Assembly: GCA_001664005.1 (NCBI GenBank)
Contig: CP016093.1
Span: 4,269,031-4,333,030, forward strand
Length of the DNA stretch: 64,000 nucleotides
Origin: Rhizobiales bacterium NRL2
GTDB lineage: Bacteria > Pseudomonadota > Alphaproteobacteria > Minwuiales > Minwuiaceae
Reading direction: 5' to 3'
Shown here: positions 3,603 through 7,726 of the stretch, piece by piece
Numbering within the stretch: position 1 is the stretch's first letter
Layout: every line of letters begins with the position of its first letter
The notes under the pieces: model-generated
Told to the model about the DNA's origin: nothing
Database searches by the model: none
What the model saw: the letters and a program-made list of their open reading frames with translations, nothing else
Translations under genes and position numbers: made by a program

Positions 3603-4844
3603 TCAAGCCGCGCCGGGTTCGACGATAGGCCCGGGCGGGTGATCCCGGTCGGCCCACAGGCCGACGCCGAGCGATACCGTCGTGCAGATGCCGAAGCCGA
3701 TCATCAGCGGAATGACGCTGCCGTCCAGCTGACTGCCGATCAGGATGCCCTGGGGCACGGCGAGCGCGGTCGGCACGAAACCGACGAAGGCCGAGGCGAT
3801 GCCCGCGATGGCGCCCATCGGCTCCATGGCGAGCGCATTAAGGTTGCCGAAGACCATGCCGACGGCGAAGAAGATCGCCATGAAATAGACCATCAGCCAG
3901 AACAGGCTCGGCTCGACGCCCATCGCCAGCGCGATGGCGGCCATGACGAAGGACGTCGCGGCGGACGCGGTCTGGGAAATACGCACCAGCCGGCGCATGC
4001 CATAGCGCATCACGATCCGGCCGTTGAGAAACGAGGCGACGCCGAGCGATGCCGCGCCGCCGGCGAAGTACAGCGCGAAGGCGTCGCCGGTACCGTATTG
4101 GTACTGGAAGATCTGCTGCGCCGAGCTGAGATAGGCGAGGAACGGCCCGAAGGTGAAGCCCGTGGCGATGGTGTAGCCCAGCGTGATCCGGTTGGTCGCG
4201 GCGGTGCGGAATCCGCGCGCGATGTTGGAGAGAGAGAACGGCACCCGGCGGGCCGGCGGCAGGGTTTCGAACTGGCGCAGGCCGAACCACGTCACCGCGA
4301 TGCCGGCCAGCCCGATGAAGAAGACGAAGATCAGGTGCCAGTCGCCGGCGAACAGGATTCCCTGCCCCACCATGGGCGCCAGGATCGGCACCAGGATGAA
4401 GACCGCCATGATGAAGCTCATGACCTGAGCCATGCCCCGGCCGGCGAAGCGGTCGCGGACCACGGCGATGGTGACGATCCGCGCCGACGCGGCCCCCAGA
4501 CCCTGCAGCGCGCGGCCCACCAGCATGGTCTCGAAATCCGGCGCGAACAGCGAGGCGAGACAGCCGGCCAGGAAGATCGCGATGCCGATGTAGATGGCCG
4601 GCTTGCGGCCGATGCTGTCCGACAGCGGGCCGTAGATCAGCTGTCCCAGCCCCAGGCCGGCGAACAGCACGGTGACGATGAGCTGGTTGTCGGTCACGTC
4701 GGCGACGCCGAGATCGCGCCCCATGACCGGCAGCGCCGGCAGCACCGTGTCGATCGAGAGCGCTACCATGGAGGTGAGCAGCGCCATCATCGTCACGAAC
4801 TCCGTCCGTCCCGGTCCCGTCCCGCCATTTGCCGAATTGCTCAT
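3603..4844 (-). CDS. Bcr/CflA-type MFS multidrug transporter
   Basis: A 413-residue inner-membrane proton-driven exporter with twelve predicted hydrophobic segments. The Bcr/CflA look comes from the N-terminal TEFVTMMALLTSMVALSIDT segment and the motif-A loop GPLSDSIGRKP near residue 75. Bcr/CflA carriers export bicyclomycin, chloramphenicol, sulfonamides or cysteine-related compounds; which one applies here is not visible. It is 57 bases upstream of the carboxyltransferase gene on the same strand and 84 bases downstream of the phytanoyl-CoA dioxygenase-like gene, so the minus-strand genes from 6723 down to 1977 may form one transcript. Confidence 0.88.
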   Translation of the reverse strand: MSNSANGGTGPGRTEFVTMMALLTSMVALSIDTVLPALPVMGRDLGVADVTDNQLIVTVLFAGLGLGQLIYGPLSDSIGRKPAIYIGIAIFLAGCLASLFAPDFETMLVGRALQGLGAASARIVTIAVVRDRFAGRGMAQVMSFIMAVFILVPILAPMVGQGILFAGDWHLIFVFFIGLAGIAVTWFGLRQFETLPPARRVPFSLSNIARGFRTAATNRITLGYTIATGFTFGPFLAYLSSAQQIFQYQYGTGDAFALYFAGGAASLGVASFLNGRIVMRYGMRRLVRISQTASAATSFVMAAIALAMGVEPSLFWLMVYFMAIFFAVGMVFGNLNALAMEPMGAIAGIASAFVGFVPTALAVPQGILIGSQLDGSVIPLMIGFGICTTVSLGVGLWADRDHPPGPIVEPGAA

Positions 4845-4928: not shown

Positions 4929-5819
4929 TCAGCCGGCCCTGGCGCCCGTCTGGTGTTTCCAGGGTCCGACATAGCCCGCCGACCAGTCCGGCGGCAGTTC
5001 GCAGCCGCGCGGATCGTGGCAGGAGAAACGGGCCGGCTTGCCGCGCACGATGGCGCCCTCGTAGGGGCTGGGGATCGGATTGGTCACATAGGGCATGGAA
5101 TCGGCGGAGCTGTAGACGTTGAGCAGCATCGGCCGCATGCGGTCCGAACGGTTGGCCTGGCTGCCGTGAATGACGCGGCAGTTGATCAGCACCGCCGAGC
5201 CCGCCGGCCCGGTCAGACTGACCACGTCGTCGCGCCAGCCCTCGTACAGGTCCTCCTCTGGAATGCGCAGCACCCAATTGCCGTCGCGGTCGTACATGGA
5301 GTGCATGGGCGGCTTGTGACTGCCCCGGATCGCCAGCAGCGGCCCCTGCGGCTCGCCGGTGTCCTCCAGGTAGATGCCGACGGTCATGGGGCTGTAGTCG
5401 GTATGCGGCCAGGCCGGCACGTCCTGGTGCCAGTCGAACTTGTGGCCACCCTTGGGCCATTTGAAGTTGAGCTTGGAGTGATAGAATTTCACGTCCGGCC
5501 CGCAGACGTCCGCCGCGATGTCGGCCGAGACCGACTCGCTGGCGAAGGCCCAGAACTCGGGATGGTGCGTGACGGGACTGACCAGCCGCCTGAGCCGCGG
5601 GTCGTCGGGCGAATGCCCCTCCTCCAGGATGAAGCGGCCGTCATCCTCCGCAACCTCGCGGCTGAGATCGACCATCTCGTCCATCGCATCCTGCAGACGC
5701 TTCAGCCAGGCGGCGTCGACCGCGCCCTCGATCACGGCGCAGCCATCCTCGAAGAACTGTTCCCGCTGCGCCTTGCTCAGCACCGTCGTGGGATGCTTCA
5801 GCACGTCTTCCATCAACAT
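4929..5819 (-). CDS. Phytanoyl-CoA dioxygenase (PhyH) family protein
   Basis: A 296-residue non-heme iron, 2-oxoglutarate-dependent oxygenase of the PhyH family. The iron triad is visible: H131 and D133 in WHQDVPAW, and a distal H218 in VIHGSQ, followed by an arginine in NRSDRMRP that could hold 2-oxoglutarate. Members hydroxylate acyl-CoAs, ectoine, halogenated or alkaloid compounds, so the substrate is open. The start codon lies 13 bases after the THI5/NMT1-like gene on the same strand, a clear operon arrangement, which suggests both proteins handle the same small molecule (inference). A second ATG two codons in (MLMED) is an alternative start. Confidence 0.88.
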   Translation of the reverse strand: MLMEDVLKHPTTVLSKAQREQFFEDGCAVIEGAVDAAWLKRLQDAMDEMVDLSREVAEDDGRFILEEGHSPDDPRLRRLVSPVTHHPEFWAFASESVSADIAADVCGPDVKFYHSKLNFKWPKGGHKFDWHQDVPAWPHTDYSPMTVGIYLEDTGEPQGPLLAIRGSHKPPMHSMYDRDGNWVLRIPEEDLYEGWRDDVVSLTGPAGSAVLINCRVIHGSQANRSDRMRPMLLNVYSSADSMPYVTNPIPSPYEGAIVRGKPARFSCHDPRGCELPPDWSAGYVGPWKHQTGARAG

Positions 5820-5832
5820 GAACTCTACTCCA

Positions 5833-6723
5833 CTACCCGATTGTCGGCGGCTCCGCGCAGACCTGCTCGTAGGCGAAGCGCTCGGTCAGTCCGCCGGACT
5901 GCTGATAGATGTCCAGGGTCGCCTCGTAGGCGTCCCGCGTGATCTCCACATGGGGTGTCCAGCAGCCGAGCCGCTGGTAGGCCGCGATACAGTCGGTCAG
6001 CGCCGCCTCGGTGATGTCCGGGAAATGCGGCTTCTCGGCGCGGGCGATCTCGGCGGCCGACGCTTCGTTCATGTAGCGCCGCGTCTTCGCATAGGCCCGC
6101 ATGAAGGCGCGCGCCGTGTCGGTCGCGAGCCATTCGCGCTTCGCCGCCAGGCTGGAAAAGCCGCAGCGGCCGACCTTCGGGCCGACCTGCGCAACGACGC
6201 GACCGACGCCGTCGGCCTCGAGTTGCTGCGGATAGGGACCCTGCTGCTGCACGTACTGGCCCTGCCCTTCCCGGTAGGCGCGGTCGATGGCGTCGGCCCC
6301 GCCCGGCGTGATCGCCTTGATCCTGTCGAAGTCGATGCCGGCGCGGTGGCAGGCGTACTTGAACATCACCTGGGGCTGGCCGCCGCCGAACATGACGACC
6401 TCCGCCCCCTCCAGCTTCTTCCAGTCGAAGTCCGGGTCGGCCTCCCGCCCGGTGATGAAGAAGCCGTCCATCTCGTTGACCTGGGCGAAGTGGACCGCGC
6501 TCGGCGTCTCACCTTTCTGCAGCGGCCCGAATCCCTGGCTGAGCGCCGACTGGATGACGTCCGCCTCGCCACGCTCCAGCGCCTCGATCGCCGAGACCCC
6601 CGGCTTCGCCACCGACCAGTCCGGCTCGAGGCCCTCCTCCTGCAGGAAGCCGCCCGTGAAGGTGGAAATCAGCGGCGAATAGAACGCCGAGAACAGCGTG
6701 AACTGGATGCGGATGACGGTCAT
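5833..6723 (-). CDS. THI5/NMT1-like substrate-binding family protein without a signal peptide
   Basis: A 296-residue periplasmic-binding-protein-fold protein of the NMT1/THI5-like group, related to ABC solute-binding proteins such as SsuA and ThiY. The start at 6723 is set by a GGGGAGG ribosome site; the open frame runs further upstream but with poor sequence. From this start (MTVIRIQFTLFSAFYSPL) there is no signal peptide or lipobox, and no permease or ATPase gene is nearby, so an ordinary role as a transport binding protein is doubtful. It could be a cytoplasmic ligand-binding protein or an enzyme like fungal Thi5. The thiamin-type CCCFC cysteine run of Thi5 is absent (GRCGFSS is seen instead). 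Operonic with the PhyH gene. Confidence 0.7.
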   Translation of the reverse strand: MTVIRIQFTLFSAFYSPLISTFTGGFLQEEGLEPDWSVAKPGVSAIEALERGEADVIQSALSQGFGPLQKGETPSAVHFAQVNEMDGFFITGREADPDFDWKKLEGAEVVMFGGGQPQVMFKYACHRAGIDFDRIKAITPGGADAIDRAYREGQGQYVQQQGPYPQQLEADGVGRVVAQVGPKVGRCGFSSLAAKREWLATDTARAFMRAYAKTRRYMNEASAAEIARAEKPHFPDITEAALTDCIAAYQRLGCWTPHVEITRDAYEATLDIYQQSGGLTERFAYEQVCAEPPTIG

Positions 6724-6856
6724 TGTCTTGCCTCCCCTTGATTGCGCCGATCTTGCCCGCCCCGCCCCCGGCGAACAAGGTCGAGGCGGCGCGGCGACGC
6801 CGGCCCTTGGCCCCTGCCGCCGATCATGATGAAATCGCTGCGGGAGAAAATGCATC
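6724..6856. promoter_or_regulatory. Divergent promoter region between the THI5-like and TauD-like genes
   Basis: This 133-base gap separates two divergent genes and must hold promoters for both directions. A ribosome site GGGGAGG serves the minus gene and GGGAGAA serves the plus gene. I could not pick out convincing -35/-10 boxes. Confidence 0.4.
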
Positions 6857-7726
6857 ATGGCCGAGTTCGAAACCGAACCCCTGCACGACGATTTCGGCGC
6901 GCGGATCACCGGCGTCGACCTGACGCCGCCTCTGGCGCCGGATATGGTCGAGGCGATCCGCGAAGCGATCGACGAGCATTCGCTGCTGATCTTCCCCGAT
7001 CAGGGTCTCGACGACGCGGCGCAGCTCGCCTTTACCGGCCTGCTGGGCGAACCGGAGCCGAACCACGTGATCCTCGGCCAGACCGGCCGCCGGGAATATT
7101 TCGGCACCATCGGCAATATCGACGCCGAAGGCCGGCAGATGGGCAACGACCACAAGCATGTCCGGTTCCTGACCGGCAACAACATGTGGCACACCGACTC
7201 TTCGTTCCGCGACGTGCCGTCCTTCGTCTCGATCATGTCGGTCCACGAGGTGCCCGACGAGGGCGGCGAGACCCTCTATGTCAGTGCCCGCGCGGCCTAT
7301 GACCGCCTCTCCGAGGCAGAGCGCGACGAGATCGATCCGCTGGTGACGATCCACGATTACGTCTTCTCCCGCTCCAAGGTCGGCCCTGACGCGGTCACGC
7401 CCTCGCACGCCGCCAGCCTGCCGCCGGTGCGGCAGCGGCTGGTGCGCGCCAATCCGCGGACGGGGCGGAAGAACTATTATGTCGGCTCCCATGCAAAGAC
7501 CATCGAAGGCTGGGAGGACGCGCGGAGCCGCGACCTGCTGGACGACCTGCTGGCGCGCGCGACGCGGCCCGAGCACGTCTACACCCTGCGCTGGCAGCCG
7601 GGCGACCTGGTGATTTGGGACAACCGCTGCCTGCTGCACCGGGGCGTCGGCTACGACGCCGACCGCTACCGCCGGCTGATGCGCCAGACCCGCGTCGCCG
7701 GAAGGTGCAACACGCTGGCGGAGTAG
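6857..7726 (+). CDS. TauD/TfdA family 2-oxoglutarate dioxygenase
   Basis: A 289-residue iron(II)/2-oxoglutarate-dependent dioxygenase of the TauD/TfdA family, which oxidatively cleaves or hydroxylates substrates such as taurine, chlorophenoxyacetate or alkyl sulfates. The HxD pair is H112 and D114 in MWHTDSSF, the distal histidine is H261 in LLHRGVG, and an arginine-rich segment just after it (RRLMRQTRV) fits the 2-oxoglutarate anchor. Length is typical. It is transcribed away from a second oxygenase locus (PhyH-like gene at 4929-5819), so the region holds two different 2-oxoglutarate oxygenases. TauD itself cannot be assumed; the substrate is unknown. Confidence 0.9.
   Translation: MAEFETEPLHDDFGARITGVDLTPPLAPDMVEAIREAIDEHSLLIFPDQGLDDAAQLAFTGLLGEPEPNHVILGQTGRREYFGTIGNIDAEGRQMGNDHKHVRFLTGNNMWHTDSSFRDVPSFVSIMSVHEVPDEGGETLYVSARAAYDRLSEAERDEIDPLVTIHDYVFSRSKVGPDAVTPSHAASLPPVRQRLVRANPRTGRKNYYVGSHAKTIEGWEDARSRDLLDDLLARATRPEHVYTLRWQPGDLVIWDNRCLLHRGVGYDADRYRRLMRQTRVAGRCNTLAE

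Follow-up and report, generated by a model that had tools for sequence, protein, structure and literature searches.

A leaderless NMT1/THI5-type protein from an alphaproteobacterial genome represents a strongly conserved, undescribed family with a predicted solute-binding-protein fold

In the type II periplasmic-binding-protein fold the strand-helix junctions contact the ligand. Thi5, MqnA/MqnD and DszB are cytosolic enzymes of this fold, and the desulfinase DszB uses a cysteine nucleophile in the cleft. The active site of Thi5 includes a lysine and a histidine, numbered Lys62 and His66. The nearest precedent for the protein investigated here is the CA3427 family of fungi and Bacteroidetes, described in PMC3073944 as an uncharacterised family of the same fold that is mis-annotated as thiamine-related, has conserved cleft residues and whose cleft is strongly hydrophobic. 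The CA3427 family may be a non-catalytic cytosolic binder. Genes of NMT1/THI5-like proteins as well as of dioxygenases have also been reported under the xanthine riboswitch (PMC7373994), and a misleading automatic label on such proteins is described in each of the two papers.

We analyzed a protein of this kind, which together with its relatives is referred to as family A. The window, meaning the whole analyzed stretch of 64,000 nucleotides, contains the following features at this locus:

5833-6723, minus strand: leaderless NMT1/THI5-type protein (family A), 296 amino acids plus stop codon, with a predicted type II periplasmic-binding-protein fold (open reading frame, Pfam and fold model)
4929..5819, minus strand: PhyH-type 2-oxoglutarate oxygenase (PF05721, E 1e-29)
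3603..4844, minus strand: Bcr/CflA-type MFS exporter, the next co-directional gene, two places downstream of the family A gene
6724..6856: intergenic region of 133 bases between the family A gene and the divergent TauD gene, containing no Rfam RNA
6857..7726, plus strand: TauD/TfdA-family oxygenase, divergent neighbour of the family A gene

A sequence-only reading of the window had described the protein as similar to ABC solute-binding proteins, and both Pfam and the fold prediction agree. The match to PF09084 (NMT1/THI5-like) is weak, its 24.5 bits lying above the cut-off of 20.5. The NMT1_2 score falls below its cut-off, and no match of the protein to the NCBIfam models was found. The open reading frame is not a chance one, since 189 relatives were found in a scan of the named-genome collection and divergence is concentrated at the third codon positions, which differ far more among family A genes than first and second positions do. 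The best 80 of the 189 relatives, showing 66-76% identity to the window protein, were retained. They are derived mostly from alpha-, beta- and gammaproteobacterial metagenome assemblies and from a few named genera (Sneathiella, Hyphomicrobium, Pelagibius, Acidisphaera). An alignment of 85 sequences has a mean column identity of 78% and 59 invariant columns. Within the phylum sample a close copy was detected in the genome of origin only (1/397), and the distribution of family A is therefore patchy. A search of open-licence PMC yielded no paper on family A. It is a strongly conserved, undescribed family, new as a family, while its kind is already known. One copy on a contig labelled Deltaproteobacteria (L021:239-1126) groups with the betaproteobacterial ones in the tree, reflecting either transfer or mis-binning.

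Export signals were judged by eye and by hydrophobicity. Within residues 1-40 of the window protein the most hydrophobic 11-residue stretch reaches a value of 1.37, compared to 1.67-3.07 in the nine other PF09084 proteins encoded in this genome, which without exception (9/9) look exported. The sole longer start for the window gene is a GTG at 6909, which would extend the gene into the divergent TauD gene without supplying a hydrophobic stretch. All of the 80 retained relatives share a common start point with the consensus M-x-x-I-x-I-Q-F-T-L-F-S-A-F-Y. The aligned first codon is ATG, GTG or TTG in 79 of them, and in the remaining relative (L080) an ATG is located one codon earlier. An in-frame upstream start is absent in 43/80 relatives and a stop codon occurs at most 15 codons upstream in 27/80. 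Only one candidate leader was seen among the 80, a GTG located 17 codons upstream in L022 that would yield a hydrophobic stretch (2.59); the relatives thus share no conserved upstream start that would provide a genuine signal. In the predicted model the first beta strand comprises residues 2-8, therefore the chain of the window protein begins where the fold begins. The missing signal peptide had been recognized correctly in the earlier reading.

We called genes on 81 loci (the window and the 80 relatives) and tallied the neighbours. A gene with an ABC ATPase motif is present within three genes in 3/81 loci. Over all 81 loci these motifs occur in 3/433 nearby genes versus 5/515 farther genes, so that their frequency near family A equals the background, and a BPD_transp_1 permease was found in 2/77 downstream neighbours. 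Family A genes are thus not generally located beside ABC permease genes. For the window gene itself, scanning the neighbours with Pfam and NCBIfam revealed no adjoining ABC gene, and the second gene downstream encodes an MFS exporter, in agreement with the absence of transporter partners noted before. The fold and the Pfam family would also suit a conventional exported solute-binding protein that serves a remote ABC permease and for which the start or the leader had been overlooked. We consider this very improbable, because the start at strand 1 is conserved across the whole sampled family, the other PF09084 proteins of the genome all carry leaders, and ABC genes are not enriched near family A. 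Since neither an upstream signal start nor ABC adjacency was found to be a property of the family, the cytoplasmic ligand-binding protein or enzyme suggested by the sequence-only reading is the right frame. The best explanation, which we regard as probable, is a protein that works on its own in the cytosol, has the two-lobed fold known from solute-binding proteins of the NMT1/SsuA type and acts as an enzyme or as a ligand carrier or sensor. Such a protein would close around a single specific small molecule there.

The neighbour tallies did not reveal a conserved operon: apart from family A itself, clustering gave no cluster present in more than 8/81 loci. The commonest Pfam family accounts for 6/77 genes at position -1, 6/77 at +1 and 5/144 at both ±2 positions, and ten close neighbours scanned singly belong to ten different families. 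Hydantoinase genes are absent from the 25 commonest neighbour families listed at one or two genes from family A, a list that single cases could escape. As there is no conserved partner gene, no pathway is indicated for family A.

The distance of only 13 bases (5820-5832) between the family A gene and the downstream PhyH gene had been reported correctly, the suggested pairing of the two as a functional unit did not hold. Outside the window a counterpart of the PhyH gene beside a family A gene was found in 1/86 loci, in a genome of the same genus (G004) only, and in three other carriers (G073, G075 and G083) the PhyH relatives are situated on other contigs. The PhyH pairing is local and no trait of family A. 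A TauD neighbour is present in 6/86 loci, namely G004 and one alphaproteobacterial clade of five (L023, L033, L052, L063 and L085) in which a divergent TauD gene is positioned as it is in the window; on the family A tree this distribution needs two changes. In L033 a second TauD gene lies downstream. Genus members without the family A gene keep TauD in 5/5 cases at 61-63% identity and PhyH relatives in 4/5 cases at 42-44% identity. In one of them (G003) the TauD and carboxyltransferase orthologues are separated by about 190 kb, so that of all genomes seen only the window genome (G000) and G004 have the block. A dedicated partner that presents a substrate to the PhyH and/or TauD oxygenase would account for the short spacing and the divergent TauD gene, both kept in G004, and the recurrence of TauD neighbours in two separate clades allows for a link to 2-oxoglutarate oxygenases. 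However, the small number of loci with either neighbour and the retention of both oxygenases in genus members that have no family A gene make such a partnership unlikely. PhyH and TauD are local neighbours rather than fixed partners, and may handle related substrates in this lineage.

The AlphaFold2 model of the window protein has a pLDDT of 95.1 and a pTM of 0.91. Using Foldseek and VIA-align the model groups with type II binding proteins, with the following values for comparison to solved structures:

3qsl: Z 26.1, rmsd 4.1, 289 aligned residues
4nmy: Z 25.3, rmsd 3.8, 288 aligned residues
3un6: Z 25.2, rmsd 3.1, 279 aligned residues
3ix1: Z 24.9, rmsd 3.9, 285 aligned residues
4esx (Thi5): Z 22.4, rmsd 4.3, 284 aligned residues
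2x7p (CA3427): Z 21.0, rmsd 4.2, 281 aligned residues, 12% identity
2de2 (DszB): Z 18.2, rmsd 3.7, 281 aligned residues
2czl (MqnD): Z 17.6, rmsd 4.1, 257 aligned residues

Among solved structures only 3qsl was clearly found by sequence (profile E 1.1e-10). Within the exported group comprising the 3qsl-type proteins (CAE31940 of Bordetella) and ThiY/SsuA/TauA, 3qsl is thus the closest solved relative by sequence as well as by fold, but the 3qsl-like relatives that were fetched have export signals and cover no more than a part of the family A profile. Residues S12, Y15, Q58, S62, N83, D86, Q116, Q161, S190 and S191 are invariant and located at or beside strand-helix junctions of the model, at loops which in this fold line the cleft. 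Taken together with H78, this invariant and mostly neutral polar set leads us to guess at a neutral polar or heterocyclic ligand rather than a sulfonate. None of the 59 invariant columns is a cysteine; C125 is nearly invariant and lies in a helix of the second lobe. No invariant lysine or cysteine nucleophile was seen in the family A alignment of 85 sequences, which weakens the reading as an enzyme.

Like family A, the Thi5/NMT1 HMP-P synthases (4esx, 4h67) combine an NMT1-type fold with the lack of export. A function of this type, with the thiamine pyrimidine being made from the protein's own histidine and PLP, would be in line with the Pfam NMT1/THI5 match, the shared fold (Z 21-22 at 11-12% identity), the cytosolic location of Thi5 and the absence of ThiC from the window genome. 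The ligand-residue alignment with the THI5 family proposed in the earlier reading was carried out against yeast Thi5. In this weak alignment (probability 1.3%) the Lys/His pair is not matched: GLKAMIH of Thi5 aligns to the IQSALS region, placing Gln58 and Ser62 at the positions of the catalytic lysine and histidine, and CCCFC aligns to GRCGFSS. Both Gln58 and Ser62 are invariant in the 85 family A sequences. As had been stated before, the cysteine run is missing, and none occurs anywhere in the window protein. In both trees Thi5 groups with the exported ThiY-like protein of the window genome, apart from family A, although this is a join of long branches. The absence of ThiC also does not track with the family A gene: ThiC is present in 2/7 family A carriers versus 26/96 genomes overall, and none of the seven genus members has it, be it with or without a family A gene. 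The aligned residues, the trees and the occurrence of ThiC each speak against a Thi5 function, which was rejected as hardly conceivable. The exported ThiY-like protein of the window genome (L112) is encoded near an ABC ATPase, suggesting pyrimidine salvage in view of the missing ThiC in the seven genus members.

As most known cytosolic proteins of the fold are enzymes (Thi5, MqnA/MqnD, DszB), catalysis appears slightly favoured over passive binding for the probably cytosolic family A protein. MqnA/MqnD, DszB and 4,5-dihydroxyphthalate decarboxylase are enzymes of the same fold but share only 10-15% sequence identity with family A. If enzymatic, family A would represent a new activity on this fold. 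The binder half of our explanation, a non-catalytic cytosolic carrier, buffer or sensor, is a reasonable though lesser candidate: the alignment offers no obvious catalytic residues, and with CA3427 an orphan of the same fold has been described (PMC3073944). Conservation along the whole chain, however, would exceed what binding alone usually needs. The CA3427 family as described there is similar to family A in its PBP type II fold, the misleading thiamine label and the conserved cleft, and differs in its fungal and Bacteroidetes hosts, the low sequence identity and the strongly hydrophobic cleft. Automatic annotation tends to label such proteins as ABC transporter substrate-binding or thiamine-synthesis proteins, which the leaderless family A corrects. 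Family A would add a further example of a transport-protein fold at work in the cytosol. It is a small target for which the ligand can be sought directly.

We also considered a link to the xanthine riboswitch. RF03054 was not found in the window or in any of the 57 family A carrier genomes tested. It occurs in one of 62 genomes tested (G407), which holds only a distant leaderless relative, with the RNA on another contig. For NMT1-type proteins at riboswitch loci of the phylum the exported-protein profile scores highest in 15/15 hit rows (11 distinct proteins), and most of these proteins have a clear signal. A connection of family A to this riboswitch was therefore rejected.

The weaker relatives of family A fall into two sets. 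One consists of eight leaderless proteins of 294-320 amino acids, for which the start was set with a simple rule based on the ribosome site; the other contains exported proteins, most of them 3qsl-like. A tree of 34 proteins places family A and the leaderless relatives on one side of a branch with a support of 97/95, which is still 97/90 with signals trimmed and the long-branch row L012 left out. These trees are midpoint-rooted, include long branches and contain relatives gathered with the window query; because sampling started from that query, other leaderless families may exist. Gene calling recovered the protein in seven of the eight distant leaderless loci. Within three genes of it, hydantoinase B/oxoprolinase genes are present in 4/7 called loci, and amidohydrolase plus enolase-superfamily genes are found nearby in 2/7, both being raw counts. 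Only tentatively we propose that the NMT1/SsuA fold has a cytosolic branch not described before, which is independent of Thi5 and comprises family A together with the other leaderless proteins. Its members could be enzymes that act on cyclic amides, ureides or similar N-heterocycles, or proteins that handle such substrates, with family A possibly acting on one widely shared compound.

The distant leaderless loci with hydantoinase B/oxoprolinase or amidohydrolase and enolase-superfamily genes are L150, L152, L153, L154, L155 and L156. In the last of these a tight run with overlapping ends (L156:4400-9264) comprises an ABC ATPase-motif gene, an FMN-dependent dehydrogenase, the leaderless NMT1-like protein and an amidohydrolase.
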